A stretch of DNA of 64,000 bases. Source: Stappia sp. TSB10P1A (GTDB lineage Bacteria; Pseudomonadota; Alphaproteobacteria; Rhizobiales; Stappiaceae). The stretch is from NCBI RefSeq assembly GCF_900185725.1, contig NZ_FYAU01000036.1, forward strand, positions 248,001-312,000. The letters are read 5' to 3'. How positions within the stretch are numbered: the first letter of the stretch is position 1; each line of letters begins with the position of its first letter. Below are positions 6,651-31,699 of this stretch, piece by piece. The notes beneath the pieces were generated by a model. That model made no database searches and was not told the origin of the DNA. It saw nothing but the letters and a program-made list of their open reading frames with translations. The position numbers and the translations under genes were made by a program.

Positions 6651-8270
6651 TCAGGCGGGCTGCGGCGTGCGCTCCTCGCAGGCGTCCTCCTGCCGCCGGC
6701 GCAGGGCCTGGCGGTCGATCTTGCCGGTCGAGGTGCGCGGCAGCAGGTCGACTGGCACGAAGCGCTCCGGCACCATGTAGTTGGGCAGCAAGGCGAGGCA
6801 GTGCCGCTTCAGCGCGCGCGCGTCCGGCGCCTCGCGCTCCGCGATGAAACAGGCGGTCAGCGTGCGGGTGCCTTCCGCGTCGAGTTCGTCGATCACCGCG
6901 ACCTCGCTGATGGCGTCGTGGCGCAGCAAGGCCTCCTCGACCTCGCCGATATTGACGCGGAAACCGCGGATCTTCACCTGGGAGTCGCGGCGACCGACAT
7001 AGTGCAGCGTGCCGCCCTCGCCGATGCGCACCAGATCGCCGGTGCGGTAGATCGGATCGGGATAGAGGTCGTGGCGCGGGTCCTGGACGAACTTCGCCGC
7101 CGTCATCGCCGGATCGCCCCAATAGCCCTTCGCCAGCGTCGGTCCACGGGCGCAGAGCTCGCCGACGGCGCCCTCCTCCGACAGCACCTCGCCGGCCTCG
7201 CCCAGCACCAGCACATCCATATGGGCGCAAGGCACGCCGATGGGCAGCGGACCGTCGCCCGGCAGGCCGGTCAGCGCGTGGCAGGTGACGTCGTTGATCT
7301 CCGTCGCGCCATAGATGTTGTGATAGCGCGCCTTCGGCAGGCGGGACATGAGATCGCGCAGTTCCGCCGGCGGATAGGGTTCGCCGGCAAAGAAGATCAG
7401 CCGCAACTGGTCGAATTCCGGACCCGGATCGCCGAGCTGGCGGGCGATCATCCGCAGCACGGACGGGACGGACTGCCATACGGTCACGCGGCTTTCGGCG
7501 ATGAAGCGCACCAGATCCGTCGCCATGAAGGACAGGCCCTGCGGCACCAGATGCACGCAGGCGCCATGCGCCAGCGCCGTCCACACGTCGAACAGCGACA
7601 GGTCGAAATGCAGCGGCGAATGCGAGGCGACCCGGTCCTGTGCCTGAAGCTCGAAATACGCCCCCGCCCAGTCGGAAAAGGCGACGATGGCGCGGTGGCT
7701 GATCATCACGCCCTTGGGGCGGCCGGTCGAGCCGGAGGTGTAGAGGATATAGGCAAGGTCCTCGTCGATGATCTTCGACGGCGGCGGCGCGGCCGCCTCG
7801 CCCCTTTCCTCGCCTTCCGGCTCCAGCATCACCGAAGCGATGCCGCGCGCCTCCGCCGAGAGCACGAGCGGCACGCCGCCCGTCACCAGCACCGGCGGCA
7901 GTTCGCACCCCTCCGCCGCCAGCGCCTCCAGCCGCTTGGCCTTGGTCCCTGAGGAGATCAGCATCGACGGTTCGCAGTCCTGCAGGATGCCGGCAAGCCG
8001 CGGCGCCGGCCCGGTCGGGTCGAGCGGCACGCAGATCGCGTCGGCCATCATCACGCCGAGCAGTGCGCCAACCGCCTCCGGCGACTTGTCGAGCCAGACC
8101 GCGACCCGGTCGTCGCGGCGCACGCCACCGGCATGGAGGGCGCGGGCGATGCGGACGGCAAAGTCCTGCAGCTCCGCCCGCGTCCAGGTCGTGCCCTCGA
8201 AGACGATGGCGGCGGCCTCCGGTGCCTGCCGCGCCAGAGCCTCGAGCAGTCGCGGAATGATGCGCGCCAT
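6651..8270 (-). CDS. Free-standing amino-acid adenylation enzyme (A domain)
   Basis: A 539-residue single-domain NRPS-type adenylation protein from ATG 8270. Core motifs are in order: LYTSGSTGRPKG (A3), HFDLSLFDVW with the Asp that binds a substrate amino group (A4), NIYGATE (A5), YRTGDLV (A7), VKIRGFRVNIGEVE (A8) and the C-terminal TSTGKIDR Lys (A10). No carrier or condensation domain is attached, so it must load a separate carrier, most likely the ACP at 19193. Size and motif style resemble prolyl-AMP ligases of the PltF/RedM/AnaC kind and also DltA. The amino acid is therefore inferred, not read. It is the last gene of the dctPQM-yggS-kinase-like unit. Confidence 0.85.
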   Translation of the reverse strand: MARIIPRLLEALARQAPEAAAIVFEGTTWTRAELQDFAVRIARALHAGGVRRDDRVAVWLDKSPEAVGALLGVMMADAICVPLDPTGPAPRLAGILQDCEPSMLISSGTKAKRLEALAAEGCELPPVLVTGGVPLVLSAEARGIASVMLEPEGEERGEAAAPPPSKIIDEDLAYILYTSGSTGRPKGVMISHRAIVAFSDWAGAYFELQAQDRVASHSPLHFDLSLFDVWTALAHGACVHLVPQGLSFMATDLVRFIAESRVTVWQSVPSVLRMIARQLGDPGPEFDQLRLIFFAGEPYPPAELRDLMSRLPKARYHNIYGATEINDVTCHALTGLPGDGPLPIGVPCAHMDVLVLGEAGEVLSEEGAVGELCARGPTLAKGYWGDPAMTAAKFVQDPRHDLYPDPIYRTGDLVRIGEGGTLHYVGRRDSQVKIRGFRVNIGEVEEALLRHDAISEVAVIDELDAEGTRTLTACFIAEREAPDARALKRHCLALLPNYMVPERFVPVDLLPRTSTGKIDRQALRRRQEDACEERTPQPA

Positions 8271-8290
8271 TGTGGTCGTCTCCTGATTTT

Positions 8291-9643
8291 CTAAATGTCG
8301 TAGCGGCCCATCAGCCAGGCGAAATACTGGAAGCGGGGGCCCAGGAAGCGCTCGGCCTTGCCCCACATCTCGTCGTCGGTGATGTCGCTGGGATACTTGC
8401 GCCCGACGGCGCTGCGCTCGAACAGCGGCCGCAGCAGGGTCAGCGCCAGGATGTAGAAGAGATCGTGGTCCATCTTGTAGGACTTGCGCCGGTCGCCGTC
8501 CCAGCCGCCGAGAATGTCGTCCCGGTGCTTGGTGAGCAGCGCCAGATGCGGGATGAAATAGCCCCACATCCGGCGGGAGATGGCGCGGATCTCGGCCTCC
8601 GGCACGTCCGGGAAATAGCCGGCGATCTTCGCGGCGATCGGATCGAACTCCATCAGGTTGTCAATCGTGTACTTGCCGAGCGCGGTCGGATAGCCGAGCT
8701 TGCCGACCATCCGGTAGATGGCGCTGGCGAGGTCGCGCCAGGCCTGCATCGCCTTTGCCGCCTCCGGCAGGTGGTTGATGTCCTGCACGGAATCGAGGTC
8801 GATCAGGAACAGCCGCTTGCTCTCGACCGAGTAGACGAAATTGCCCCAGTCGCCGGAATAGCGGTAGAGCTCGGCCAGCGAGAAATCGTGCAGCAGCTTG
8901 CCGGCCTCGCGGGCGAGCTTGCAGATGACGGCAAGGCGGACGCGCTCGTCGTCCGGATCGCCCTCGATCCCGAGCGCTTCGCGGATGTCGTCGTAATGGG
9001 CGTCGAAGGCCGGGTCGCTGCCGCGCGCCATGCCGGCGCCGAACAGGATCTCCGAGATGCGATAGGCGGCGGCGCCGGGCGACAGCGTCAGCACCGCGCC
9101 CATCGGCTGGCCCTGGAAGGTCAGGTTGCCGCCATACTCGATCACCGCCAGCGGCGCGATGGTCGGCACGCCGTGGCGCACCAGCCGCTCGGCCGACCAG
9201 AACTCGCGATGCGCCCGCTCGTGGACGATGCCGCCGATCGGGCTCGGCGAGCTGTAGGCGTATTTGTACTCGCCCTCGTTCGAGATGCCGAAATGCGGAT
9301 AGGTGACGAGATATTCCAGGAGGTCGGTCAGCGGCGGCACCGGATCGTTGCCGGCATCGTCATGCAGCTTGTTGGAATATTCCGCGTCGCCCGGCAGGAT
9401 CGGGTTCCACAGGCCGACGCCCTTCAGCTTCGCCGCATGGAAGGTGACGGTGGGATCGTCCTTCAGCGCGATCGGCTCGTTGAGGCTTTCCCAGGAGCCG
9501 CGGCCGCGCCGGGTGAAGGTCGGCACATGGCCGTTCCAACTGGCGATGTCGAGCAGGCGCTGGAACTCGCCGTCCGAAATGGTCAGTCCGTCGAACTGGT
9601 GGGTGATCCGGTAGTCCAGCTTCTGGTGAGCGTTGATGTTCAT
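8291..9643 (-). CDS. Unknown protein with protein-kinase-like fold features
   Basis: A 450-residue protein I do not recognise. ATG 9643 is preceded by AGGA at good spacing; an in-frame ATG at 9685 is possible. Several parts look like the kinase/aminoglycoside-phosphotransferase fold. There is a Lys near residue 72, a helix with Glu147 leading into a PLAVIEYGG strand, and a catalytic-loop-like stretch with His252, Gly267-Asn268 (GDWGNF) and the acidic IDLDS at 281-285. No signal peptide or membrane segment is visible. It lies 20 bases before the adenylation gene and follows yggS, so it may phosphorylate a small precursor or a protein of the pathway. Function is inference. Confidence 0.6.
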   Translation of the reverse strand: MNINAHQKLDYRITHQFDGLTISDGEFQRLLDIASWNGHVPTFTRRGRGSWESLNEPIALKDDPTVTFHAAKLKGVGLWNPILPGDAEYSNKLHDDAGNDPVPPLTDLLEYLVTYPHFGISNEGEYKYAYSSPSPIGGIVHERAHREFWSAERLVRHGVPTIAPLAVIEYGGNLTFQGQPMGAVLTLSPGAAAYRISEILFGAGMARGSDPAFDAHYDDIREALGIEGDPDDERVRLAVICKLAREAGKLLHDFSLAELYRYSGDWGNFVYSVESKRLFLIDLDSVQDINHLPEAAKAMQAWRDLASAIYRMVGKLGYPTALGKYTIDNLMEFDPIAAKIAGYFPDVPEAEIRAISRRMWGYFIPHLALLTKHRDDILGGWDGDRRKSYKMDHDLFYILALTLLRPLFERSAVGRKYPSDITDDEMWGKAERFLGPRFQYFAWLMGRYDI

Positions 9644-9691
9644 CGAATAGCGTCCTGAATGAAAAGGAAAAGCCGGGTCAGGCATAGGCGA

Positions 9692-10369
9692 TCAGGCATA
9701 CGTCCTTGCGCCGAAGATGGCCGAGCCGACGCGCACGCTGGTGGCGCCGTAGATCACCGCCTTCTCGTAGTCGCCCGACATGCCCATGGAGCGGCGGGAA
9801 AGGCCGGCCTTGTCGGCAAGCGCGGCCAGCAGCTCGAAATGCGGCGCGGGATCCTCGCCTGCGGGGGGAATGCACATCAGCCCCTCGATGGTCAGCCCAT
9901 ACTCGTCGCGGCAGCGCGCGACGAAGGCGATGGCCTCATCCGGATCGATGCCGGCCTTCTGCGGCTCGCGCCCGGTATTGACCTGCACATAGAGGCGCGG
10001 GCTGCGGCCCTGGCGGGCGATCTCGCGGGAAATCTCGGCGGCGATCTTCTCCCGGTCGACGGACTCAATCACGTCGAACAGGGCGACCGCGTCGCGCGCC
10101 TTGTTGGACTGCAGCGGCCCGAGCAGGCGCAGCTCGATATCGGGATATTCGGCCTTCAGCGCCGGCCATTTCTCCTGCGCCTCCTGCACCTTGTTCTCGC
10201 CGAACACCCGGGCCCCGGCAGCGATCACCGGGCGGATCGCCTCCGCGTCGAAGGTCTTGCTGACGGCGACCAGCGTCACCGGGCCGGGATCGCCCTCGCG
10301 CACTTCCTCCGCCGCCGCGATCTTCTGCAAGACCGCCGTCAGCCGCTCCACCGATTGATCCTTGGTCAT
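9692..10369 (-). CDS. YggS/PROSC-family PLP-binding protein
   Basis: A 225-residue alanine-racemase-N-fold protein from ATG 10369. It has VAVSKTF with the PLP Lys (about residue 36), GENKVQEAQEKW, the LGPLQSNKAR segment in place of the usual IGxLQxNK, VNTGREPQKAG, GLMCIPP, and SMGMSGDYEKAV near the C-terminus. The family has no known catalysis and buffers pyridoxal phosphate and amino/keto-acid pools. It usually sits beside proC or cell-division genes. Here it lies between a TRAP permease gene and an unknown protein in a biosynthetic operon, which suggests a pathway-dedicated copy. Confidence 0.9.
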   Translation of the reverse strand: MTKDQSVERLTAVLQKIAAAEEVREGDPGPVTLVAVSKTFDAEAIRPVIAAGARVFGENKVQEAQEKWPALKAEYPDIELRLLGPLQSNKARDAVALFDVIESVDREKIAAEISREIARQGRSPRLYVQVNTGREPQKAGIDPDEAIAFVARCRDEYGLTIEGLMCIPPAGEDPAPHFELLAALADKAGLSRRSMGMSGDYEKAVIYGATSVRVGSAIFGARTYA

Positions 10370-10407
10370 GGTCGTCACTCTCTGTGTCGGTTGTGGATAA
10401 GAAGGCC

Positions 10408-11691
10408 TCACACGCCCACGCCGAACAGGCGCGGCACCAGCAGCGTCAGGATGGGAAACAGCGCGCACAGCACCACGATCACCACATGGGCGAAGGCGAA
10501 GGGCAGCGACTCGCGCACCGCGCTCTCGTAGGGGGCGTTGGCTATTCGCGCGGCGGTCATCAATGTCAGGCCGACAGGCGGGGTGATGTTGCCGAGGTTC
10601 AGCGCCAGCAGCATCACCATGCCCGCATGCAGCGGGTGGAAGCCGAGCTCGACCAGCGCCGGGGCGAGCACCGGCACGGCGATGATGATCGCCGGCAGCA
10701 CGTCGATGAACATGCCGATGACGACGAGCAGCGCTGCGACCGCGAGGATCTGCACCACCGGGTTGTCGCTCATGGTGGCGATGGTCTCGGCCGCATGGCG
10801 GGCGATGCCGGAGCGGGTGACGAACCAGCCGAGCACATTGGAGGCGCCGAGCAGCAGGAACACCACGCCGCTGAAGCTGACGGTGGAGACCAGCGACTCC
10901 CACAGGTCCTGCCGGGTCAGCCGGCGATAGGCGAAGCCGCCGAGCGCGAGCGCATAGATGCAGGCGATCACCGAGGCCTCGGTCACCGTGGTCAGGCCGG
11001 TCAGCACGCCGCCGAGAATGACCAGCGGAATGCCCATGGCGGCGAGCGCGCTGATGCCGGTCGAGACGATCACCGAGAGCATCACCCGCTGATGGCTGGC
11101 ATAGCCGCGCTTCCACGAGATGATGCCGCTGACGATCAGCATGGCGAGGCCCATCATCAGCCCCGGCACGATGCCGGCGGCGAACAGGCCGAGGATCGAG
11201 ATGTCGCGCAAGGTGGCGGCATAGGCGATCATGATGATGCTGGGCGGGATGATCGGCCCGACGATGGCCGAGCAGGCGGTGACGGCGGCGCAATAGGCGG
11301 CGCTGTAGCCCTCCTTGCGCATGGAGGGGATCAGCGTGCGCCCGATCGCCGCCGTCTCGGTCACCGCCGCGCCGGTCAGCCCGGCGAACATCAGGCAGGT
11401 GGTGACGTTGACATGCGACAGCGCGCCGGGCACCCGGCCGAACAGCGAACTGGCGAAGGCGATCAGCCGCTCGGTCAAGCCGGCGCGGTTCATGATCTCG
11501 GCGGTGATGATGAAATAGGGCACGGCGATCAGCACGTAGCCGGAGACGCCGGAATAGAAGCGGTCGGCAAGGATGCCGAGGAAATCCGCCCCGCCGATGG
11601 AATAGGCGCCGATCATGCCGGCCGCGGTCAGCACCAGGCCGAGCGGCAGGCCGATGAACATCAGCACGACGAAGGCGAGAGAGGCGCTCAT
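10408..11691 (-). CDS. TRAP transporter large permease (DctM)
   Basis: A 427-residue, very hydrophobic protein with about 12 membrane spans. It has the family motif GPIIPPSIIMIAYA and a C-terminal LNLGNITPPVGL repeat of it. Start ATG 11691 overlaps the DctQ stop as ATGA. With DctP and DctQ it forms a sodium-driven tripartite uptake system for a small, usually acidic, organic compound across the inner membrane. It is 38 bases upstream of yggS on the same strand, so import is probably co-expressed with the adenylation unit. Confidence 0.92.
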   Translation of the reverse strand: MSASLAFVVLMFIGLPLGLVLTAAGMIGAYSIGGADFLGILADRFYSGVSGYVLIAVPYFIITAEIMNRAGLTERLIAFASSLFGRVPGALSHVNVTTCLMFAGLTGAAVTETAAIGRTLIPSMRKEGYSAAYCAAVTACSAIVGPIIPPSIIMIAYAATLRDISILGLFAAGIVPGLMMGLAMLIVSGIISWKRGYASHQRVMLSVIVSTGISALAAMGIPLVILGGVLTGLTTVTEASVIACIYALALGGFAYRRLTRQDLWESLVSTVSFSGVVFLLLGASNVLGWFVTRSGIARHAAETIATMSDNPVVQILAVAALLVVIGMFIDVLPAIIIAVPVLAPALVELGFHPLHAGMVMLLALNLGNITPPVGLTLMTAARIANAPYESAVRESLPFAFAHVVIVVLCALFPILTLLVPRLFGVGV

Positions 11692-12404
11692 CCGGCGACC
11701 TCCGCGACGCGGCGCGCCGGCGTCGGTCCGGCCGCTTCCGCCAGGCTCGGCGGCGATATGCCCGCCTCGGCCGGTCCGTCGCCGTAATCCAGCCCCGCCT
11801 CGGCGGCCTCGACCTCCTCCGCCGCCGCGCCGATGGCACCGCGCTCTTCCAAAAGGGCCATGCCGTCGACGAGGTGCAGGCACAGGATCGCGCCGGCCAC
11901 CGGCACGGAGGCCGCCGTCCAGTGATGCGCCACCTGCAGGCTGGAGGAGATGATGTAGAGGTTGCTCGCCTCGCGGAAGAAGCCGAACCCGTACCACAGC
12001 AGCGCCAGGGCGAAGAGGCCGATGGCGGCAAGGTTGATGCCCTGCGCCAGCCGCGCGGCCCAGCGAGGCAGCATCCGCGCCACCGCGAGGATGGCGATAT
12101 GCTCGCCATACTTGAAGGCGACGGTGATGCTGAGCATGCCGAGCCAGGGCAGGAACAGGCGGAACAGCGAGGGTCGGGTATTGGCATAGGCGAAGGCGAG
12201 CGGGCCGCTGTCGAACAGCGAGGCCTGGCCGAGCCGGTGGGCCAGCGCCAGCCCCATCTCCAGCACGATGCCCGCCGCCGAGACGACCAGCATCACGGCG
12301 AGCAGCAGGGCGCAGACGACGATGGTCGCACGGTTGACCGCGTCGCTGGCCCGGCGCAGGGCGCCGACAAGCGCTCCCGGCCCAAGGGTGGAAGTCGTGC
12401 TCAT
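11688..12404 (-). CDS. TRAP transporter small permease (DctQ)
   Basis: A 238-residue protein with about four membrane spans and a soluble, acidic, Ala-rich C-terminal tail of ~60 residues (EEVEAAEAGLDYGDG) that is longer than usual. Start ATG 12404 (MSTTSTLG) was preferred to the upstream ATG at 12485 because the extra 27 residues are Pro/Arg-rich filler. It bridges the DctP-DctM complex. Overlap with dctM is 4 bases. Confidence 0.88.
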   Translation of the reverse strand: MSTTSTLGPGALVGALRRASDAVNRATIVVCALLLAVMLVVSAAGIVLEMGLALAHRLGQASLFDSGPLAFAYANTRPSLFRLFLPWLGMLSITVAFKYGEHIAILAVARMLPRWAARLAQGINLAAIGLFALALLWYGFGFFREASNLYIISSSLQVAHHWTAASVPVAGAILCLHLVDGMALLEERGAIGAAAEEVEAAEAGLDYGDGPAEAGISPPSLAEAAGPTPARRVAEVAG

Positions 12405-12508
12405 GGGGTGTCTTCCCGGTCGGCTCGGCTGAAACGGGCGCGGCGCGGCGGTGGCCGGCCGCGACGGGCGGGGATGCGCGGGCACGCCCGGCCTCCCCGC
12501 CCTTTCGA

Positions 12509-13681
12509 TCAGTCGAGATAGATCTCGATCGCGGAGCGATTCAGGTCGGCATGGATGCGCTCGACCTCGGCGCGCAACTCGTCATAGAGCGCCGCCTTCT
12601 CGCCGAATTCCTTCACCAGCCACTCGCGATAGATCGGCTGCGCGATCTCCCGCATCCGCTGCTTCTCGGCATCGGAGAGGATGTGGCACTGCTCGAACTT
12701 CTTGCAGGAGTTGACCCAGCCGACGACGGTGATCTGCGCGGCGATGCCATGCGCCATGGCGACCGCCTCGCGCGCGGCGGCGACGATGATCCTCTGGTAG
12801 TCTTCGGGCAGTTGCGAGAACCAGGCCTCGCTGACGCTCCAGGTGATGGTGTTGTAGACGTGGCCGCTCCAGGTGGTGAAATTGGTCACGTCGTAGAGCT
12901 TGAAGATGTCGTTGACGCCCGGCGCATGGAAATGGCCGTCGACGAGGCCGGTGGCAAGGCCGGTCTGCAACTCGCCCCAGGGCAGCGGCGTCGGCGAGGC
13001 GCCGAGCGCGCGCATGATCGTCATATGCGCCTGGTTCTCCTCGACGCGGATGCGCAGGCCCTGCAGGTCCTCGACCTTGGTGATCAGCCGCTTGTTGTTG
13101 GCGAAGGCGACGAAGCCGCCGCCGTCGTCGAGCGTGCCGAGGTAGCGCAGCCCGCTTTCCTTGACCATCGGCTTCATGAACTCGGCGAACCACGGGCTGT
13201 CGAAGAAGGTCCAGGCCGTCCGGTAGTCCGGGAACAGGAACGGCGAGGTGATCATCTCGTAATTGCGGTAGAAGGAGGCCTGCGTGCCCGAGCCGAGCAT
13301 GACCGACTGGATGGTCTTGCCGGCGCGGGTCTGCTGCGCCGCCTCGACCTCGCCGCCGAGCGCGCCGTTGCCGAAGACCTGCACGTCGATGTCGCCATTG
13401 GTGGCGCTTTCCACCAGTTGCTCGAAATGCTTGAGGGCCGGCGCTGTCTCGTTGTTGGTGAGATCGTCCGGATAGAGATGGGCGATGGTCATGGTGTAGC
13501 GGGCGGCCTCGGCCGGGCTGGTCCAGCCAGCCGCGAGCGCCAGCGCCAGGACGCCGGTCAGCAGCAGTCCGCGCAGACCGGCGCGGCCGGACGAGCTGCC
13601 TTGCGCGCGGCTGCGAATTGCCTGCGCCGTACCCTTGTTACTTATACGTGGGAAGCAACAACAACAGTCTCCGACCGACAT
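12509..13681 (-). CDS. TRAP transporter substrate-binding protein (DctP)
   Basis: A 390-residue periplasmic binding protein. ATG 13681 has a strong AGGAGG five to six bases upstream. The N-terminus carries four consecutive Cys before a normal signal core (LLLTGVLALALAAG, about residues 41-54) and an AEAA cleavage region. The mature part shows the family features TIAHLYPDDL, GGEVEAAQQTRAG, GLRIRVEENQ with the carboxylate-binding Arg, and PWGELQTGLATGLVDG. The ligand is unknown; the family binds mostly carboxylates. It is the first gene of the left-arm operon. Confidence 0.9.
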   Translation of the reverse strand: MSVGDCCCCFPRISNKGTAQAIRSRAQGSSSGRAGLRGLLLTGVLALALAAGWTSPAEAARYTMTIAHLYPDDLTNNETAPALKHFEQLVESATNGDIDVQVFGNGALGGEVEAAQQTRAGKTIQSVMLGSGTQASFYRNYEMITSPFLFPDYRTAWTFFDSPWFAEFMKPMVKESGLRYLGTLDDGGGFVAFANNKRLITKVEDLQGLRIRVEENQAHMTIMRALGASPTPLPWGELQTGLATGLVDGHFHAPGVNDIFKLYDVTNFTTWSGHVYNTITWSVSEAWFSQLPEDYQRIIVAAAREAVAMAHGIAAQITVVGWVNSCKKFEQCHILSDAEKQRMREIAQPIYREWLVKEFGEKAALYDELRAEVERIHADLNRSAIEIYLD

Positions 13682-13861
13682 AATTCCCCTCCTCAAGCGA
13701 ATATTATTCTATTCGATTGTAAGGCGAGGATATGAAGCGGCCTTTTGCCGGTCTAATTCTATTTTTCTATTTCTTGTGAGTGTCGTAACGTAAATGGAAG
13801 ACAGCGCGACAACGCCAGCGGCCGGGGCCTTGCGACCCCGGCTCGACGTCCGGTCTCCGGC

Positions 13862-14098: not shown

Positions 14099-15772
<1,674 letters not shown>

Positions 15773-16135
15773 CCGCAATCCTCCCTGGACATCCCGCGGC
15801 GCCGGTCCGCCGCCGTCCCGGCCCTCCCGCGGGCCGGCTCCCGATCCAGATGCGCACCGCCGGTCCGGCCGGACTTGCCGGAACAGTGCCGGAGATCGGC
15901 GCAACCGCCTCAAATCCCACGCTGTTTCCCATCCGGATAAGGTGTGCCCATCAGCCTCCAGGCGACGGTATCGCCTCGTCATTCATTTCAGAAATATATT
16001 TCTGAGAGGGTATTAAGACGTTTTTCGACCTAATCGCGCTGCGTTCCGCCCCCGCCGACAGCGGCGGCGCCGACCCTCCCGAGCCGGCGCCCCCGTGTGC
16101 TGCTTGCGCGTTCGAATTGCAAAAGGGCGGCCGCT
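15773..16135. other. Spacer between ilvD and the LysR gene with 18-base palindrome
   Basis: TCAGAAATATATTTCTGA at 15988-16005 is a perfect palindrome in otherwise GC-rich DNA. It precedes ilvD by about 215 bases and follows the LysR gene. No gene was seen in the gap. Confidence 0.6.
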
Positions 16136-22419: not shown

Positions 22420-22432
22420 CAGGGAGATCCAG

Positions 22433-23443: not shown

Positions 23444-24492
23444 GCGCCGCCGCGCCGCCGGACGGCGACCTCCTCGTCCGGCGGCAGGGCCGCGCCGGGC
23501 GGATCACGCTGAACCGCCCCCGCGCCCTCAACCTCTTGAGCGAGGCGATGCTTGCCGGCATCGCCTTAGCGCTTCAGGACTGGCGCGCCGACCCGGCCAT
23601 TGACCTCGTCGTCATCGATGCAGTCGGCGGGCGGGCCTTTTGCGCCGGCGGCGACATTGCCGCCGTGCATGGCCGGATCGCCCTCGGCGACATCGAGGGC
23701 GCGCGCGGCCACTGCCTTGCCGAATACCGTCTCGACCTTGCCCTGGCACGCTACCCCAAGCCCGTCGTCACCCTGATCGACGGCGTCGCCATGGGCGGCG
23801 GGCTGGGTCTCGCGCTGCACGCCAGCCACCCCGTCGCCAGCGAACGGGCGAGCTTCGCCATGCCGGAATGCGGCATCGGCTGGATCCCCGATTCCGGCGC
23901 AACGCATCTTCTCAGCTCCCTGCCCGCTCCGCTCGCCGCCTTCATTGCCCTGACCGGCGAGAAGCTCAGTGCGGAGGCCGCCGCCGCGCTCGGCTTCGTG
24001 CGCTACCGGATCGCCTCGGCCGACCTGCCGGCGCTGGCCGAGGCGCTGTGCGAAGACGGCATCGACGCCCTGCCCGCGTCCCTAACGGAGAGCGCTGCCG
24101 CCCTGCCCGGCTTCGGCCCGGACCTGGAGCAGGCCTTTGCCGCGCCCGACGTGGCGGAGATCCTCGCCCGGCTGGAAACCGGCGGCGAGCCTTGCGCGCG
24201 TGCGGCAAAGGCACTCCTCAAGGCCTCGCCGCTGGCGCTGGCGCTGACCTTGGAGGCGCTCGCTCGCGCCCGCCGGCACGGCAGTCTGGAGGCCGCGCTG
24301 GGGTTCGAATACGCGATTATAAGCCGGCTCATGATCCATGCGGATTTTTCGGAAGGCATCCGCGCCGCGATGATCGACCGCGACCGCCGCCCGGCCTGGA
24401 CGCATGCCGCGACGCACCGCTTTTCGGCCGCCGAGCTCGCGCCGTTCCTGCCCGCTGCCGGCGCGCCTTTGCTGCTGCCCGGCCCCCCTTGA
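23440..24492 (+). CDS. Enoyl-CoA hydratase/3-hydroxyisobutyryl-CoA hydrolase-like protein
   Basis: A 350-residue crotonase-fold protein. TTG 23440 overlaps the previous stop as TTGA; no later ATG or GTG keeps the first strand, so I take this start. FCAGGD (67-72), GGGLGLALH (119-127) and MPECGIGWIPDSG (141-153) are as in 3-hydroxyisobutyryl-CoA hydrolases, including the catalytic Glu of the PEC motif. In valine breakdown that enzyme hydrolyses a thioester. In this cluster it could release the product from CoA or the carrier protein. Coupled translation with the KAS gene supports a shared pathway. Confidence 0.8.
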   Translation: MSAAAPPDGDLLVRRQGRAGRITLNRPRALNLLSEAMLAGIALALQDWRADPAIDLVVIDAVGGRAFCAGGDIAAVHGRIALGDIEGARGHCLAEYRLDLALARYPKPVVTLIDGVAMGGGLGLALHASHPVASERASFAMPECGIGWIPDSGATHLLSSLPAPLAAFIALTGEKLSAEAAAALGFVRYRIASADLPALAEALCEDGIDALPASLTESAAALPGFGPDLEQAFAAPDVAEILARLETGGEPCARAAKALLKASPLALALTLEALARARRHGSLEAALGFEYAIISRLMIHADFSEGIRAAMIDRDRRPAWTHAATHRFSAAELAPFLPAAGAPLLLPGPP

Positions 24493-24745: not shown

Positions 24746-26320
24746 ATGACCTCAGTCCAATCGACACAACGTTCCTCCTTGATGGACAACTGGCCGACGC
24801 TCGCGGTCGCCGCGCTCGGCTCGTTCCTCGTCATTCTCGACGTGACGGTGGTCGCCATCGCGCTGCCCTCCATCGAGCGGGACCTGAAGGCGAGCTTCTC
24901 CGAGCTCCAGTGGATCATCAACGCCTACAACATCGCCTATACCTCGGTGCTGATCGCCGTCGGCGCCCTTGCCGACTGGTTCGGCCGCCGCCGAGTGATG
25001 GTGATCGGCCTCGCGCTGTTCGGCGCCACCTCGCTGATCGTCGGCCTCGCCGATACGCCGACAGCCCTGATCTGGGGCCGCGTCGCGCAAGGGCTCTCGG
25101 CCTCGGCCATGCTGATCCTCGGCGTCGCGCTGATCTCCAACGCCTTCCAGGGCTCCGACCGGGCCCAGGCCTTCGCGCTGTGGGGCGTGTCGATCGGCTG
25201 CGGCGCGGCCTTCGGCCCGATCGTCGGCGGCATTCTCGTCGACCTCTTGAGCTGGCGCTGGATCTTCCTGCTCAACGTGCCGATCGTCGCGGTGCTGATT
25301 GCCCTGTGCTACTGGCGGGGGGGGGAATCCTCCGACGACAATGCAGGCGGCCTCGACTGGCCGGGCATCCTCACCTTCACCGGCGCGCTGGCGTGCCTCT
25401 CCTACGCGGTGATCGAGGGCGGCGAGCGCGGCTGGGACAGCAACACCATCGTCGCGGCGATGGCCGGCGCCGTGGTGCTGTTCCTGCTGTTCGTGTGGAT
25501 CGAGACCAGCGTCAGGAAGCCGGCCTTCGACCTGCGCCTGTTCCGCATCCCGACCTTCACCGGCATCCAGCTCGTCTGCGTGCTCAACAGCATCACCTTC
25601 TGGGTCATGCTGGTCTACCTGCCGATCTACTTCCAGGTGGTGCATGACATGTCGGCGTCCTCGGCCGGCCTGATGCTGCTGCCGATGACGGTGCCGCTGC
25701 TGCTCGTCGCCCCGCTCGGCGCCCGCCTTGCCTCGCCGGAGCGGTTCGGCGTGCGCGGGCTGATCGCCTTCGGCTGCGCGCTGATCGCCGCCGGCTTCCT
25801 GTGGCTGGCCATCGCCCCGCCGGCCGAGGTGGTGCTGTGGGTCGTCGCCTTCGTGCTGCTCGGCATCGGCACCGGCCTCATCAACGGTGAATTGTCCAAT
25901 GTCGCCACCGCCGTCGTGCCGCCGGAGCGGGCGGGCGTCGCCTCCGGCGTCAACATCACCTTCCGCCACGGCTCCTTCACCCTGTCGATCTCGGTGTTTG
26001 GTGCCATCCTGCTGTCGGCGATCACGCTGCAGCTCGGCGGCACGGGCGAGCTTGCCGCCGGGCTCGGCGACGGCCTCGCCAATACGGCGAACTTCATCGC
26101 CCGCGGCGACTTCGCCGGCGCCGTTGCCAATGCGCCGGTCGAGGTCCAGCCGGCACTCACCGAATTCGGCCGGGCGAGCTTCGCCTCCGCCTTCTCGGTG
26201 CTGATGTGGATCGTCGCCCTGCTTTCGGTTCTTGCCATCGTCATCTCTGGTCTGATGATCCGGCGGCGCGACTTGCTGGCGGGCCCGGAGGCCCAGGCAG
26301 CCGCGGCGGCGGGCGAGTAA
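24746..26320 (+). CDS. MFS multidrug/siderophore-type exporter (DHA2, 14 TM)
   Basis: A 524-residue EmrB/QacA-type transporter from ATG 24746, with about 14 membrane segments. DHA2 motifs include LDVTVVAIALPSI in helix 1, GALADWFGRRRVM (loop 2-3), GRVAQGLSASAML and the GAAFGPIVGGILVD motif C of antiporters. It most likely exports the locus product using the proton gradient. A run of nine G at about 25317-25325 lies within the gene. It is separated from the hydrolase by 253 bases and ends at a good terminator. Confidence 0.9.
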   Translation: MTSVQSTQRSSLMDNWPTLAVAALGSFLVILDVTVVAIALPSIERDLKASFSELQWIINAYNIAYTSVLIAVGALADWFGRRRVMVIGLALFGATSLIVGLADTPTALIWGRVAQGLSASAMLILGVALISNAFQGSDRAQAFALWGVSIGCGAAFGPIVGGILVDLLSWRWIFLLNVPIVAVLIALCYWRGGESSDDNAGGLDWPGILTFTGALACLSYAVIEGGERGWDSNTIVAAMAGAVVLFLLFVWIETSVRKPAFDLRLFRIPTFTGIQLVCVLNSITFWVMLVYLPIYFQVVHDMSASSAGLMLLPMTVPLLLVAPLGARLASPERFGVRGLIAFGCALIAAGFLWLAIAPPAEVVLWVVAFVLLGIGTGLINGELSNVATAVVPPERAGVASGVNITFRHGSFTLSISVFGAILLSAITLQLGGTGELAAGLGDGLANTANFIARGDFAGAVANAPVEVQPALTEFGRASFASAFSVLMWIVALLSVLAIVISGLMIRRRDLLAGPEAQAAAAAGE

Positions 26321-26476: not shown

Positions 26477-27250
26477 TCAGCTCCAATAGGTCAGCGGCTG
26501 GTCGTCGCCGCGATAGCCGACGAAGCAGGACATCGTCACCCGGCGCGCGCCGACGCCCGGCGTCACCCCGTGGATCAGCAGCGAGTTGAACAGCACCAGG
26601 TCGCCGTTCTGCGGCCGGATCACCAGCCGCGGCTCGCCCAGCACCTCGCGGTCGAGCCCGTCGCGGGTCTCCTGCTCCTTGTCCTGCTCCGGCGTCGGCT
26701 CGCTCAGCCACAGTTCCAATTCGCCCCCCTCCGGCGGCATGTCGAGATAGATGTTGACCGCGAGCTGGCCGGTCAGGTCCGACGTGCCGCTGGTCAGCAT
26801 CCGCGCCAGCCGGTCGTTATGCGGCAGCATCTTGGCGCCCGGATCGATCACCCGGCAGGTGCCGACGAAGCTCTTGCGCCCGTCGATCGACTGGATGGTG
26901 GCGCCGGCCGGCCAGACCTCCTCCAGCAGCAGACGGAAATGGTCGAGCGGCGTCAGCCTCGGATAGATCAGGTCGCGGATGCCCCAGATCGAGCGCAGCG
27001 CCTCGCTGTGATAGCGTTCGGCATTGTCCGCGTCCTTGCCGACATCGACATAGCCCATGCCGAGCCGCTTCAGCGCGTTCTGCACCTTGTAGGCTTCGAG
27101 ACCCGCATCGCCGGCGACACGGTCGGCGAAGGTGGCCGCCAGATCCTCCGGATAGAAGCCCGGCACGTGGATCGCGTCGATGTTCTTGGCGATCAGCTTG
27201 CGAATGCTGTCCGCGTTAAGCTCCTTCGAAATCTCAACAGCCTTCAACAT
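26477..27250 (-). CDS. Fe(II)/2-oxoglutarate-dependent oxygenase
   Basis: A 257-residue jelly-roll oxygenase. The metal triad is His144-x-Asp146 (MLPHNDR) and His227 (NSLLIHGV), and an Arg at 236/237 is placed to bind 2-oxoglutarate. The HxD form argues for hydroxylation or a related oxidation and against a halogenase, which would have Gly/Ala in place of Asp. It is the last gene of the distal arm, 155 bases after the NIS synthetase gene. It probably hydroxylates an amino-acid-derived precursor or the assembled product. Substrate unknown. Confidence 0.82.
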   Translation of the reverse strand: MLKAVEISKELNADSIRKLIAKNIDAIHVPGFYPEDLAATFADRVAGDAGLEAYKVQNALKRLGMGYVDVGKDADNAERYHSEALRSIWGIRDLIYPRLTPLDHFRLLLEEVWPAGATIQSIDGRKSFVGTCRVIDPGAKMLPHNDRLARMLTSGTSDLTGQLAVNIYLDMPPEGGELELWLSEPTPEQDKEQETRDGLDREVLGEPRLVIRPQNGDLVLFNSLLIHGVTPGVGARRVTMSCFVGYRGDDQPLTYWS

Positions 27251-27405: not shown

Positions 27406-29307
27406 TCAGCCGGGGCCGAGGAAATAGGTGCCGATATGCCCCATCGCCCGGCGCAGCATGCCGGGCTGCGCGCCGTCGCTGCCGCCCGTCAGCGGATTGG
27501 GCAGCGTGCCGGCATATTCGAACCCCTTGTCGGGGTCGTTGGGGTCGAGAAGCTGCTGGTTGTCGCGCAGTTGCAGCCGGTTGATGCAGTTGCGTGGGAA
27601 CTCCGGCACGAAGACATCGTGGCGGGCGAACTTCTCGGCATAGTGCGGTTGCGCCGCCTGATAGGCGCGCACGCAGTCGCCGACCAGCGCCCAGAACCTT
27701 GCCTCGGGCAGCACCTGCCGTTCGTCGAGGATCGCCGCCAGATGGCGGAAATAGCAGTCGAAGACATCGGTGAAGATGCCGTCGAGCCGCACCGCGTCGT
27801 CCAGCACCACGCAGTTGCGCCGCACCACCGGCGGCAGCGTCGCGCCGCTGTTGAGGATGCGCATTTCCTCCGCCAGGTCCTTCATGACGATGCGCGTCGG
27901 CGCGTCGTTCTCCAGAATGAGGATGACGTTCTCGCCATGCGGCATGAAGATGATGTCGTAGGCGTAGTAGCAGTGCAGCACCGGCGCCAGATACGCCTTG
28001 AGATAGCGGCGGATCCACTCCTCCGCCCCCAGCCGCGAGCGCTCGATCAGGCTCGCCGTCAGCGCGTCTCCCTGCGGGTCGAGATGCAGGAGCGCTGCCA
28101 TCGTCATCAGCCGTTCGCCGGGGCGGATCAGGTTGACCGGGCTTTCCCGCCACAGGGCGGCGAGCACGTGCTTGTAAGGAGAATCCGCCGCCAGCCCTTC
28201 CTCGTAATAGGGGTTGCGGTAGCTGATCGTCGCCTGTTCGCAGATCAGGCAGAAGCCGTTGTCCTGCAGGTAGCGGTCGCGCGCCAGTAGGTTGCGCAGC
28301 CACTCGTTGATCTCCGGCGTCGTCTGCATGTCCTCCGGCGACAGGCCGCGCTGCAGCATGAAGCCCATGTTGAGGATCGACAGCGCCATCTTGACGTAGC
28401 GCTTCGACGGCGCCGAGGCATTGAAGAAGGTGCGGATCGACTGCTGCGGCTGGTAGAGGTCGCGCGACAGGCCGAGATAGACGATGTTGCGCCGGGCGAT
28501 CTCCGGGGCAAAGCTCATCGAGATGCGGTTGAACCACTGCCAGGGATGCACCGGCATGAAATAATAGCGCTCGGGGTCGAGCCCCTCGCCGGCAAGCTGC
28601 GCCCGGTAGTCGGCGACCGTTTCCGCCCCCAGTTCCTCGCTCATCAAGCGGTCGTGGTCGATGCCGGCCATCGCGGTGAAGCGGGCATGCTCGCGGGAGA
28701 CCGCGATCCAGACGATGGAGAGCGGACCGGCCGCCTCCGGCGCATAGAGCGGATAGTCGGCCGTGTCGAAGCCGAGCCGGCCATTGTTGGCGACGAAGGA
28801 GGGATGGCCCTCGGTCATGCCGGTCTCGATGGTCTGGAAATCGGCGCCGGCAAGATCGGAGGCGCGGTGCGGCCTGGTCGCCGCCTTGTAGGCGCTGCCA
28901 TAGAGAATGCTGCTGATCTCGTCGAGATAGACCGGCATCATCGCATCGCGAATGCCGAGCTCCTTTTTGAACTCGATGATAAACTTCAGCGCGTCGAGCG
29001 GCGCCGGCTTGCCCCTCACCCGCTTCTCGATCGAGTGCGCATCCACCTGCCAGTGGTCGAGCCGCATCCGCCTTGCGCGGAAGGTGTACTCGATGCCGAG
29101 CCCCGGCTGCTCCAGCACGTAGCGGCTGGCCGGGCCGGCGCCCGCCGGCTCAATCTCCCGGGGGCCAAGCAGCAGTTCGTGGGCGAACTCGGAGATCGCC
29201 TTGCGCACCAGCAGCCGGTTGGCCCACAGCCAGCGGTCGCTTTCCAGATGCGCCACCGCCCGCTCGTGCGGCGGCATGGTCTGCAACGCGGCGGTCATCG
29301 CGTCCAT
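27406..29307 (-). CDS. IucA/IucC-family (NIS) siderophore synthetase
   Basis: A 633-residue NRPS-independent siderophore synthetase. It has EGHPSFVANNGRLGF (166-180), HPWQW (254-258), QQSIRTFF (288-295), KRYVKMALS (302-310) and the C-terminal HGEN segment. It should use ATP to join a carboxylate, through an acyl-adenylate, to an amine or hydroxylamine. The VANNGR style resembles the type that self-condenses N-hydroxy-N-acyl diamines (DesD, DfoC, AlcC) more than citrate-using IucA. This class call is from memory of the motifs. It is 12 bases after the N-hydroxylase gene, a standard pairing for hydroxamate siderophores. No receptor or uptake system follows. Confidence 0.88.
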   Translation of the reverse strand: MDAMTAALQTMPPHERAVAHLESDRWLWANRLLVRKAISEFAHELLLGPREIEPAGAGPASRYVLEQPGLGIEYTFRARRMRLDHWQVDAHSIEKRVRGKPAPLDALKFIIEFKKELGIRDAMMPVYLDEISSILYGSAYKAATRPHRASDLAGADFQTIETGMTEGHPSFVANNGRLGFDTADYPLYAPEAAGPLSIVWIAVSREHARFTAMAGIDHDRLMSEELGAETVADYRAQLAGEGLDPERYYFMPVHPWQWFNRISMSFAPEIARRNIVYLGLSRDLYQPQQSIRTFFNASAPSKRYVKMALSILNMGFMLQRGLSPEDMQTTPEINEWLRNLLARDRYLQDNGFCLICEQATISYRNPYYEEGLAADSPYKHVLAALWRESPVNLIRPGERLMTMAALLHLDPQGDALTASLIERSRLGAEEWIRRYLKAYLAPVLHCYYAYDIIFMPHGENVILILENDAPTRIVMKDLAEEMRILNSGATLPPVVRRNCVVLDDAVRLDGIFTDVFDCYFRHLAAILDERQVLPEARFWALVGDCVRAYQAAQPHYAEKFARHDVFVPEFPRNCINRLQLRDNQQLLDPNDPDKGFEYAGTLPNPLTGGSDGAQPGMLRRAMGHIGTYFLGPG

Positions 29308-29319
29308 CGTCCGGCCCCG

Positions 29320-30681
29320 TCAACCGCCGGCCGAGGCGGCGGCGGTGACCCCGTCCGCCGGCGCGGCGAAGCGCTGGAAGGCAAGGCTGCGCTCGATCGG
29401 ATAATAGTCCTTGCCCAGCACCTCGCGGATGATGATCGAGTTGCGGTAGCAGGACTGGCCGAGATCCGGCGGCAGGTAGCTGTCGGCATGGATCTCCGCG
29501 TTCTGGACGAAGATCTCGCCGCCCTCCTTGTCGATGCTGCAATTGCGCGCCACCGCAAAGCGGCCCTCGCCGCACCAGTTGATGCGCTCCGAGATCGGCG
29601 CCAGATAGTCCGGCACGCGGAAGCGGTAGCCGGTGCCGAGGATCAGCGCCTCGGTCTCCAGCTCGAAGGTCCGGTCCTCCTCGACCTGGCGGAAGGTGAC
29701 GCGGAAGCTGTCGCTCGCCGCGTCATGGGCGCAGGCCTCGACCTGCGAGTTGGAGATCAGCATCATGTCGACCTCGCCGCCGAGCAGCTTGCGATAGCGC
29801 AGGTCGTAGATGTCGTTGATCAGGGACGGATTGACGCCCTTGAAGATCGCCTGCATCGCCCGCACCAGCTCCTCGCGCTTCCCGCGCGAGAGCGAGAAGA
29901 AATAATCGGCATAGTCCGGCGTCGTCATCTGCAGGGTGAACTTGGTGAGTTCGCGCGGCACCAGGCGCGTCGAGCGCGTCACCCAGTTGAGCCGGTAGCC
30001 GTAGCGGTCGATGTCGCCGAGCAGGTCGTGATAGACCTCGGCCGCGCTCTGGCCCGAGCCGACCACGGTGATCGACCGCTTCTGCCGCACCGCCTCGCGG
30101 TTGCGCATATAGTCGGCGCTGTGCAGCAGCTTGTCGCGCAGCGGCTCGCAAGGGGCGGGATAGGCCGGCGACATGCCGGAGCCGAGCACGATGCGGCGGG
30201 CGCGCAGCACCTTGCGCTGGCCCATCCTGGTGTTGAGGCAGGTCACCCGGTAGTGGCCGGCCGCTTCGTCATACTCGACCGCCTCCACCTCGCGGTTGAA
30301 CACCACGTTGTCGAGACGGCTCGCCGCCCAGCGGTAGTATGTGTTGAACTCGTTGCGCAGCAGGAAGAAGTTTTCCGTGTCCAGCAGGAACGCATAGAAG
30401 GCGTAGATCCGGCCGGTCTGCTTCAGGTAGTTGAGGAAGCTGAACGCGCTGGTCGGATCGGCCATCGTCACGAGATCGCACAGGAACGGCGTCTGCAGCG
30501 TCGCCGTTTCCAGCAGGGTTCCCTCGTGCCAGTTGAACTGGTCCTTCGCCTCCAGGAACAGGCAGTCGAGATCGCGGATTGGCTGGGTCAGGCAGGCAAG
30601 CCCGAGGTTGAACGGACCGATGCCGATGCCGATGATGTCGAAGACCTGGCCTTCGGCGCTTTGCACGGATTGCGACGTCAT
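29320..30681 (-). CDS. Lysine/ornithine/diamine N-monooxygenase (siderophore type)
   Basis: A 453-residue flavin N-hydroxylase. ATG 30681 has a clear AAGGAG 6-7 bases upstream. GIGIGPFNLGLA (about residues 18-29) binds FAD, VVGSGQSAAEVY binds NADPH, and the substrate region includes LQTPFLCDLVT and DPTSAFSFLNYL, as in IucD, PvdA, AlcA and DesB. It hydroxylates a terminal amine with NADPH and oxygen, giving the hydroxylamine for a hydroxamate. The substrate (lysine, ornithine, putrescine or cadaverine) cannot be chosen. No decarboxylase or N-acyltransferase gene is nearby. Confidence 0.9.
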   Translation of the reverse strand: MTSQSVQSAEGQVFDIIGIGIGPFNLGLACLTQPIRDLDCLFLEAKDQFNWHEGTLLETATLQTPFLCDLVTMADPTSAFSFLNYLKQTGRIYAFYAFLLDTENFFLLRNEFNTYYRWAASRLDNVVFNREVEAVEYDEAAGHYRVTCLNTRMGQRKVLRARRIVLGSGMSPAYPAPCEPLRDKLLHSADYMRNREAVRQKRSITVVGSGQSAAEVYHDLLGDIDRYGYRLNWVTRSTRLVPRELTKFTLQMTTPDYADYFFSLSRGKREELVRAMQAIFKGVNPSLINDIYDLRYRKLLGGEVDMMLISNSQVEACAHDAASDSFRVTFRQVEEDRTFELETEALILGTGYRFRVPDYLAPISERINWCGEGRFAVARNCSIDKEGGEIFVQNAEIHADSYLPPDLGQSCYRNSIIIREVLGKDYYPIERSLAFQRFAAPADGVTAAASAGG

Positions 30682-30766
30682 TGAAACTCCTTCCGGCGAC
30701 GCCAACCGGGACGCGGACGGCATCCGCGGCGGACGAAAAGACCTTAGCGACCCGGCAAAAGCAGTT

Positions 30767-30782
30767 GAAATATATTATATTC
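30767..30782. promoter_or_regulatory. AT-rich element upstream of the N-hydroxylase gene
   Basis: GAAATATATTATATTC, an imperfect inverted repeat in GC-rich DNA, lies ~85 bases before the ATG at 30681. It resembles AT-rich palindromes at 15988, 17253 and 24523 and may be a promoter or a shared operator. Confidence 0.3.
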
Positions 30783-30955
30783 GGCCCATTGGGTGGCTTG
30801 GCGACTGATTGCCCCCGAACCTCGGCCCGCCTTGTCTGAGACGCTTTCCAGCGCGCCGGATGGCGTGATTTGCGAGAACCGGAGCGCAGCGTACGTTCGG
30901 GTACGTGAACCGGAAGCGCAGAAAATCGCGCCAGGCGGCCGCTGGAGGGCGTCTC

Positions 30956-31699
30956 TCAATACGAAGACGGCCGGCCGCCGGAAAAGTCATGCGCCTCATG
31001 CCCCTCGATGGCGGGGCTGAAGATGCTGAGGCAGATCGCGGCATCGCGCACCACCATGCGGTGGGCGTCGTTGCGGTTCATGATGAAGGCGGTTGCCCGC
31101 GCGCCGTTGGTGTCGATCGGGTGGCTGCCGCTCTCCCAGACATATTCGCCGGTGCCCGAGACATAGTAGCAGCTCTCGAAATGGTGGCGGTATTGCAGCG
31201 GCGAGTCCGTATTGGCATTGCCGAGCGTCTGGCACAGGGCGAAGCCGAAGCCGTCGGCCTTGACCAGGAGCCGCCGGCTCTGGCCATTGCCCCAGAAGAC
31301 GTCGCGCTCGGTGCCGATGAACTCGTCGACATGGCGCACCAGGGCCTCCGCGCGGATCGCCTCCTGCGGCCCCTCGCCGCCGAAGACGGTACAGATGCGC
31401 ATCTCGGTCTCGGCGACGAAGCTCACCTCGACCTCGGCGCGCGCGGCGACCAGCGTGCCGGGCGACACCCTTTCGCTGCGGCCGCCGACGGTCACCGTGC
31501 CGCTGCCGGCGAGGCAGAAATGCGCCTGTGCGGGAAACTCGCCGGCGGCATCGCGCGCCACCGTGTCGGCGGCGCCGGCGGCCAGCGTCGTGTCGTAGAC
31601 CGCATGGCCGACCTGGTCGGTGCGCGCCACCACCTCGCGGGACACGGCATAGCGGAAAACCGGCGCATCGCCGGCGGCCTTGTAGGTACGGACGATCAC
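30956..31699 (-). CDS. Double-cupin protein related to ectoine synthase
   Basis: A 247-residue protein. GTG 31699 is preceded by GGGAGGG and gives an EctC-like VIVRTY start; the longer frame to 31882 has no support. Residues 1-115 form one cupin (PAQAHFCLAGSGTVTVGG). Residues 125-247 strongly resemble ectoine synthase: YRHHFESCYYVSGTGEYVW, then DAH, then FSPAIEGHEAH. Of the iron ligands reported for EctC, Glu175 and His213 match, but the Tyr position is Phe205. It may be a cyclodehydratase acting on an N-acyl diamine, or a non-ectoine variant. No ectA, ectB or ectD is present. It lies 274 bases upstream of the N-hydroxylase on the same strand. Confidence 0.75.
   Translation of the reverse strand: MIVRTYKAAGDAPVFRYAVSREVVARTDQVGHAVYDTTLAAGAADTVARDAAGEFPAQAHFCLAGSGTVTVGGRSERVSPGTLVAARAEVEVSFVAETEMRICTVFGGEGPQEAIRAEALVRHVDEFIGTERDVFWGNGQSRRLLVKADGFGFALCQTLGNANTDSPLQYRHHFESCYYVSGTGEYVWESGSHPIDTNGARATAFIMNRNDAHRMVVRDAAICLSIFSPAIEGHEAHDFSGGRPSSY

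Follow-up and report, generated by a model that had tools for sequence, protein, structure and literature searches.

Does a locus that places an aminoacyl-carrier module and genes for radical S-adenosylmethionine (SAM) and β-ketoacyl-acyl carrier protein synthase III (KAS III) chemistry beside a hydroxamate-siderophore gene set encode one biosynthetic pathway or two? The locus in question comprises about 19 genes at positions 6651..31699 of a 64-kb window (the whole stretch of DNA analyzed; 67.7% GC) from the 5.1-Mb genome of Stappia sp. TSB10P1A (G000), and coordinates below are positions in this window unless another contig is named. Genes were identified by analysis of open reading frames (ORFs), GC content at third codon positions (GC3), and Pfam and NCBIfam matches, with PDB profile searches for selected proteins. 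By "core" we mean the genes from the adenylation gene to that of a thioester hydrolase resembling 3-hydroxyisobutyryl-CoA hydrolase (HIBCH), and by "module" those for a nonribosomal peptide synthetase (NRPS)-independent siderophore (NIS) synthetase, an N-hydroxylase, and a major facilitator superfamily (MFS) exporter. The locus is real and conserved. Our preferred reading, to which we give slightly less than an even chance, is one co-inherited biosynthetic cluster made of the core and a detachable siderophore module. An earlier note on this DNA had proposed that the two arms build one product, a proposal that we rate at about even odds. Each of the gene parts listed in that note was found.

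Distribution and Gene Order of the Locus in Stappia

The core is present in 12 of 14 Stappia genomes, a genus sample included in a family sample of 87 Stappiaceae genomes, with the gene for a B12-binding radical SAM enzyme (19500..21230, + strand) and that for a 451-residue protein, P451 (8291..9646, − strand), occurring in the same 12. P451 was found in no other member of the family sample (12 of 87 genomes, all Stappia). Orthologs of the N-hydroxylase (29320..30681, −), counted at 69–100% identity, occur in 10 of the 14 Stappia genomes, again the only ones in the family (10 of 87), and all 10 are core carriers. The coreless genomes G009 and G013 have distant N-hydroxylases (32% identity), whose surroundings hold only weak MFS and dehydrogenase matches (27–35%). 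Gene order is kept in 11 Stappia genomes besides that of the window, with the locus split over two contigs in G003 and the contig of G006 ending inside the adenylation gene. Because this order is kept and the genes recur, rearranged, in Mesorhizobium, the arrangement is not a matter of chance. In most Stappia carriers, and likewise in Mesorhizobium, the genes are thus inherited together.

Two core carriers, G007 and G011 (S. stellulata DSM 5886), define the module. Both contain the core and the genes for a Fe(II)/2-oxoglutarate (2OG) oxygenase (26477..27250, −) and an EctC-like protein (30956..31699, −), and both lack the NIS synthetase (27406..29307, −) and the N-hydroxylase; the MFS exporter gene (24746..26320, +) is missing from G007 and reduced to a remnant in G011. 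That remnant, about 230 bp long, together with a short 3′ piece of the NIS synthetase gene, indicates that the module was lost in G011. In S. stellulata SN27-3 (G004) the module was retained, and the two strains thereby offer a natural comparison. In a tree of the core, G011 is sister to the module-bearing G010 and G007 branches apart, which suggests two separate losses. The expectation that the arms always occur together stands in one direction, the orthologous N-hydroxylase (at least 69% identity) being found without the core in none of the 87 Stappiaceae genomes, and fails in the other, with NIS synthetase and N-hydroxylase absent from 2 of the 12 core-bearing Stappia genomes. The boundary drawn in the earlier note, which grouped the 2OG oxygenase and the EctC-like cupin with the siderophore genes, also has to be moved: both stay with the core in G007 and G011 when the NIS synthetase, the N-hydroxylase, and an intact MFS gene are absent.

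Carriers outside Stappia

A scan of named-species contigs, which used only two 7-residue patterns and may miss distant relatives, returned 10 loci: seven from Stappia, one each from Mesorhizobium sp. Root554 (G816) and a Salinarimonadaceae metagenome-assembled genome (MAG), and one distant homolog of 37% identity. In the 60-kb stretch examined, the two arms of Mesorhizobium Root554 together span about 34 kb and are rearranged. The order runs HIBCH–KAS b–KAS a–radical SAM–carrier–dehydrogenase, a second set of tripartite ATP-independent periplasmic (TRAP) transporter genes, and LysR–IlvD–TRAP–YggS–P451–adenylation, followed by an Lrp-type gene, a bkd operon (E1α, E1β, E2, and E3), and MFS–2OG–NIS–N-hydroxylase–EctC. 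Identity between the Mesorhizobium and window proteins is 76–82% for the dehydrogenase, radical SAM enzyme, KAS b, and P451; 43–59% for the HIBCH-like protein, adenylation enzyme, KAS a, and carrier; and 58–70% for the MFS, 2OG, NIS, N-hydroxylase, and EctC-like proteins. The corresponding values for G001, the most distant Stappia, are 79–86%, 49–62%, and 64–82%. In the window a tRNA-Cys gene (6523-6596, +) directly adjoins the adenylation gene, and at the opposite end of the Mesorhizobium cluster the HIBCH-like gene is immediately followed by one for a class I cysteinyl-tRNA synthetase (L108:4255-5844).

The Salinarimonadaceae contig contains the genes for IlvD, TRAP, YggS, P451, the dehydrogenase, the carrier, the radical SAM enzyme, and both KAS III-like proteins, and an aldehyde dehydrogenase gene adjoins ilvD there. 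A Thermodesulfobacteriota MAG (G818) encodes a radical SAM homolog of 37% identity (L104:5703-7271); the surrounding 7.5 kb contains none of the other cluster genes, and the genome lacks P451.

Wider searches with single proteins returned few relatives. When the 2OG oxygenase was searched against 397 genomes sampled from the order, four other Stappia genomes alone gave close orthologs (89–92%); the remaining matches were two paralogs in the window genome itself (35–36%) and weak matches of at most 44 bits. The radical SAM protein matched 36 of 398 genomes of the phylum at E ≤ 0.001, none above 44 bits except its own. KAS b was uninformative, with matches in 390 of 397 genomes of the order, nearly all of those outside Stappia at the level of ordinary FabH-like enzymes. 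Among plasmids, the radical SAM protein had no match, and the NIS synthetase matched 1,823 records, every one under 60% identity.

The Core Enzymes

A stand-alone amino-acid adenylation enzyme (6651..8270, −) contains the Pfam AMP-binding and C-terminal domains and scores 375 bits against TIGR01733 (cut-off 317). Its specificity code, DLFQFAIDVK, was read against a PheA segment, with Val331 taken from the Stappia alignment. It is near constant wherever a Stappia genome has the complete adenylation gene (11 genomes), despite protein identities of 55–57% in the most distant. This code differs from the proline codes, and the amino acid loaded is apparently not proline. Among stand-alone proteins in the PDB, however, the L-proline ligase 6o6e comes closest (273 bits; the multidomain linear gramicidin synthase reaches 432), which argues against that assignment and counts against our reading of the core.

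The acyl-CoA-dehydrogenase-like protein (17732..18880, +) has as its best PDB match the prolyl-ACP dehydrogenase 4irn (439 bits), which we take to be AnaB of the anatoxin-a pathway. A SMEWER stretch is common to both, and its Glu is presumably the catalytic base. By these two features the protein appears to fit the prolyl-carrier subgroup of thiotemplated pyrrole modules. It scores under both relevant NCBIfam cut-offs (PigA, 418 bits, cut-off 500; RedW, 396 bits, cut-off 650) and is thus not proven to be an equivalent of PigA or RedW. The earlier note described the first three genes as the loading and oxidation module of pyrrole and pyrroline products. Because the adenylation enzyme lacks the proline code, a product of either kind is not established. 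The aminoacyl group would be held by a free carrier protein (19193..19465, +; PF00550, 34 bits), whose DSLG motif Ser is shared by the 12 core-bearing Stappia genomes and both outside carriers. A PF00550 search of the window genome gave a single carrier domain in window coordinates (C49:267229), with no second, CloN1-like carrier there.

The radical SAM enzyme matches PF02310 (52 bits) and falls just below the cut-off of PF04055 (28.6 bits, cut-off 29.5) and below that of TIGR04190 (397 bits, cut-off 500). The cysteines of its CxxxCxxC motif (C228, C232, and C235) are invariant in the four sequences aligned. P451 accompanies this enzyme in 14 of the 14 genomes with a close homolog of it (at least 80% identity), namely the 12 Stappia genomes, Mesorhizobium, and the Salinarimonadaceae MAG, and is itself conserved at 74–97%. 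Pfam, NCBIfam, and PDB profile searches with P451 gave nothing beyond chance (single matches at E 0.99 and E 0.16), and its family is unassigned by profiles; a kinase-like motif suggested by eye is not claimed for it. A CbiM-like cobalt-uptake gene lies about 17 kb off (48226-49158, +) and may be of interest given the B12 domain of the radical SAM enzyme.

Two KAS III-like proteins follow, a (21379..22419, +) and b (22433..23443, +), scoring 99 and 150 bits, respectively, against PRK06840 (cut-off 315). In alignments inspected by eye, as were those for the 2OG and EctC-like residues below, KAS b has Cys at the nucleophile position in 12 of 12 Stappia genomes and both outside carriers. At this position KAS a has Ser in 11 of the 12 Stappia genomes, and G003 and the two non-Stappia carriers have Cys. 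The idea that KAS a lacks a nucleophile was dropped, the position holding Ser or Cys in all carriers aligned. PDB matches of KAS b include, among ordinary FabH enzymes, 4xs7 (presumably DpsC), CerJ, ChlB3, and PqsC. DpsC, CerJ, and ChlB3 are acyltransferases or loading enzymes. The last core gene encodes a HIBCH-like, crotonase-fold thioester hydrolase (23473..24492, +, start approximate; PRK05617, 301 bits, cut-off 274).

About 9.5 kb between the adenylation and dehydrogenase genes had been overlooked in the earlier note. Besides P451, this segment encodes a YggS-family pyridoxal phosphate protein (9692..10369, −; TIGR00044, 158 bits, cut-off 106), a TRAP transporter, a dihydroxy-acid dehydratase, IlvD (14099..15982, −; TIGR00110, 730 bits, cut-off 618), and a LysR-type regulator divergent from the dehydrogenase gene (16136..17272, −; PF00126/PF03466). 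The TRAP genes encode a DctM-like subunit (10408..11691, −), assigned by inspection of its sequence and neighborhood and with orthologs in Mesorhizobium and at the 11 further Stappia loci; a probable DctQ subunit of uncertain start (11688..12485, −), an ORF placed between DctM and DctP; and the solute-binding protein DctP (12509..13696, −; PF03480, 193 bits, with PDB DctP matches).

These genes raise the alternative that the locus is one for catabolism or precursor supply of branched-chain acids, in which a hydroxy acid taken up by TRAP would be processed by IlvD and the HIBCH-like protein and would also be the substrate of the dehydrogenase. The TRAP genes and ilvD accompany the core in Stappia and in the two outside carriers alike, a bkd operon lies inside the Mesorhizobium region, and the aldehyde dehydrogenase gene beside ilvD on the Salinarimonadaceae contig fits the same picture. 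A free carrier, an adenylation enzyme, a B12 radical SAM enzyme, and two KAS III-like proteins would, however, be unusual in catabolism, the dehydrogenase is most like prolyl-carrier oxidases, and no HIBCH-like gene was found on the Salinarimonadaceae contig. We regard this alternative as improbable.

IlvD itself permits a further explanation, that it is a resistant second dihydroxy-acid dehydratase and the product of the locus inhibits that enzyme. It is a separate, cluster-specific copy that tracks the core, with 85–88% orthologs in four of the four carriers tested (G007, G011, G816, and G817) and only weaker homologs in the coreless G009 and G013. Moreover, aspterric acid, a natural inhibitor of dihydroxy-acid dehydratase, was found through a self-resistance gene (PMC11528067). 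The enzyme can equally supply a precursor, and in Mesorhizobium there are bkd genes close to it. IlvD may be a precursor supplier; that it is a resistant target copy is less likely, and the full self-resistance scenario strikes us as more doubtful still than a catabolic locus.

The Siderophore Module, the 2OG Oxygenase, and the EctC-Like Cupin

The NIS synthetase (PF04183/PF06276) is of the AlcC/DfoC/DesD kind, with PDB matches to the alcaligin protein 2x0o, which we take to be AlcC (687 bits), DfoC (5o7o, 686 bits), and DesD (652 bits); its best NCBIfam match, SbnF, lies at 188 bits, far under the cut-off of 900. The N-hydroxylase (PF13434) matches 5o8p (481 bits), 6xbb (454 bits), presumably DfoA and DesB, respectively, and the putrescine N-hydroxylase 7us3 (423 bits), and its best NCBIfam match is the histamine N-monooxygenase family TIGR04439 (366 bits, cut-off 700). 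At the family level, these likenesses fit the two proteins to predicted roles as enzyme D, joining N-hydroxy-N-acyl diamines, and as enzyme B, a diamine N-hydroxylase of the desferrioxamine type. Neither an amino-acid decarboxylase (enzyme A) nor a CoA-dependent acyltransferase (enzyme C) is among the Pfam matches of the region, the decarboxylase search having been confined to it. The MFS exporter is DHA2-like (PF07690, 182 bits; TIGR00711, 216 bits, cut-off 230).

The 2OG oxygenase (PF22814 and PF13640) is WelO5-like. A halogenase reading was considered and set aside: the HxD...H residues are all present, which favors a hydroxylase. Two tandem paralogs of 34–36% identity to it lie elsewhere in the window genome (C49:464040-465606), adjoining genes that by eye resemble cobalamin-biosynthesis genes.

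The EctC-like protein joins an N-terminal cupin-like half to a C-terminal EctC domain (PF06339; PRK13290, 119.8 bits, cut-off 128; PDB 5onn). The Glu and His ligand residues align to those of EctC, and Phe stands at the position of an EctC Tyr that serves as an iron ligand. The EctC domain could mean that an ectoine cluster lies beside a desferrioxamine cluster, as the published antiSMASH label for Stappia 28M-7, "Ectoine and desferrioxamine relative", would have it (PMC12997852). The domain is, however, joined to an additional cupin-like half, falls slightly short of the PRK13290 cut-off, and carries the Phe described above. Furthermore, among eight genomes searched, EctA (TIGR02406) over cut-off is present elsewhere in G004, G007, G010, and G011 and absent from G000, G002, G008, and G816; because of this absence, ectoine by the known route is rejected as the product in the latter four genomes. 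For the locus at large we consider the ectoine explanation very improbable, the least probable of those weighed here, and genome mining probably mislabels the EctC-like enzyme as one of ectoine biosynthesis.

Beyond the EctC-like gene lies a ferric-reductase-like gene (32831-34270, −), found in the same place in G002, G008, G012, and G007, the last a carrier without the NIS synthetase, and not seen in the stretches from G001, G004, G006, G010, and G011. A 1,789-codon open frame on the other strand (32741-38110, +) is an antisense shadow of the genes opposite it (GC1 0.88, GC3 0.70).

One Product or Two Neighboring Pathways

The most serious alternative is that the core, with the 2OG oxygenase and the EctC-like cupin, makes one compound and the NIS synthetase, N-hydroxylase, and MFS exporter an ordinary bisucaberin- or putrebactin-like siderophore, the acyltransferase and decarboxylase being encoded elsewhere. 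The core without the module in G007 and G011 is what this would predict, as is the closeness of the NIS synthetase and N-hydroxylase to the alcaligin, DfoC, DesD, and desferrioxamine N-hydroxylase structures; the bisucaberin B cluster includes an MFS gene as well (PMC6164419). On the other hand, the NIS synthetase and N-hydroxylase genes are nested between those for the EctC-like protein and the 2OG oxygenase rather than beside them, no member of the family sample has the N-hydroxylase ortholog without the core, and both arms occur together in Mesorhizobium. The acyltransferase evidence points both ways. PF13523 genes occur elsewhere in the window genome (one, adjoining a gene read by eye as hslU) and in Mesorhizobium (two), whereas no PF13523 acyltransferase over the cut-off, the one acyltransferase family searched for genome-wide, was found in G002, G004, or G010, three of the five NIS carriers tested. 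We judge two separate pathways possible but clearly less probable than a single cluster of core and detachable module.

Several observations weigh against that preferred single-cluster reading, beginning with the PF13523 genes just mentioned. The absence of the module from 2 of 12 core carriers implies that the core is useful by itself, and no module remnant was seen in G007, where loss is accordingly not demonstrated. In Mesorhizobium, the Lrp-type gene and four bkd genes separate the adenylation gene from the MFS gene, and on the Salinarimonadaceae contig no adenylation, LysR, HIBCH-like, or module gene was found. The strong correlation between the pairwise distances of the two parts (r = 0.99 over 11 taxa) counts in favor of a single cluster, yet within a genus plain vertical descent would also produce it. 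Finally, no TonB-receptor family was matched among the 30 window ORFs submitted to profile searches, and by eye no genus-wide conserved block that could be an iron box lies upstream of the EctC-like gene.

The scheme that we infer for a single cluster, in its reactions, its acyl hand-over, and its product class, is as follows. The adenylation enzyme would load an amino acid onto the free carrier protein, the dehydrogenase would desaturate the carrier-bound aminoacyl group, and the B12 radical SAM enzyme would probably methylate it. The KAS III-like pair would transfer, or condense, the resulting acyl group, which the HIBCH-like enzyme might release. The N-hydroxylase would make an N-hydroxy-diamine, which the KAS III-like pair would acylate with the acyl unit of the core, substituting for the CoA-dependent acyltransferase not recognized in the cluster. 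The NIS synthetase would then form the amide bonds, the 2OG oxygenase would hydroxylate, the EctC-like cupin would cyclize by dehydration, and the MFS protein would export a hydroxamate metallophore. That the core may supply the acyl unit to the module is suggested mainly by the lack of a recognized decarboxylase or acyltransferase in the cluster and of PF13523 over the cut-off in G002, G004, and G010, and by the nesting of the NIS synthetase and N-hydroxylase genes between those of the EctC-like protein and the 2OG oxygenase. The complete route, from a carrier-loaded amino acid through AnaB-like desaturation, B12 radical SAM methylation, direct transfer by a Ser/Cys KAS III pair onto an N-hydroxy-diamine, and AlcC/DesD-like joining to a cyclic-amidine hydroxylated metallophore formed with the EctC-like cupin and the 2OG oxygenase, would be new to hydroxamate biosynthesis; taken as a whole it is speculative, and we think it rather unlikely to be right in every step.

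Comparison with Known Systems

No described cluster with this gene set turned up in the top-ranked results of broad searches of open-licence PMC papers, in keeping with the earlier note. The nearest published entry is BGC 6, a biosynthetic gene cluster of Stappia quadratibracata 28M-7, 14.3 kb long and classed by antiSMASH as polyketide synthase (PKS)-like, ectoine, and NRPS-independent-siderophore (PMC12997852, Table 3, AEM 2026). These rule matches are as expected from the KAS III, EctC, and NIS genes, and BGC 6 looks like the same locus on the strength of its class labels rather than its sequence; the section of that paper on it lists it without a gene table or product.

In the pyrrole module of clorobiocin and coumermycin (CloN1–CloN7), an amino acid held on a carrier is processed by an adenylation enzyme, the carrier, a dehydrogenase, a radical-type methyltransferase, and distinct proteins for acyl transfer (PMC11218499, PMC10849742). 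The Stappia core is predicted to have the same enzyme roles, a likeness drawn from the description rather than from the sequences of CloN2, CloN6, and CloN7. It differs in having a single carrier and in assigning transfer, as we propose, to a KAS III-like pair and a crotonase-fold hydrolase. The code of its adenylation enzyme also differs from the proline code, a difference that extends to the anatoxin-a starter module, which, unlike the Stappia cluster, feeds a polyketide synthase; among solved structures, the prolyl-ACP dehydrogenase of that module (4irn) is nearest to the Stappia dehydrogenase.

Described clusters for siderophores built from N-hydroxy-N-succinyl-diamine (HSD) generally encode a decarboxylase, an N-hydroxylase, a succinyl-CoA-using acyltransferase, and an NIS enzyme (PMC6164419). 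The Stappia locus resembles those for desferrioxamine, alcaligin, bisucaberin, and putrebactin in the kind of its N-hydroxylase and NIS synthetase, as judged by best PDB matches, and has the MFS exporter in common with the bisucaberin B cluster of the same paper. In contrast to them, it contains no recognized decarboxylase or CoA-dependent acyltransferase, and its N-hydroxylase and NIS synthetase genes are surrounded by carrier-protein, radical SAM, KAS III, 2OG, and EctC-like genes. If the two arms do build one product, carrier-protein chemistry and NIS siderophore chemistry would meet in a single pathway, with a KAS III-type acyltransferase replacing the one usual in hydroxamate biosynthesis.

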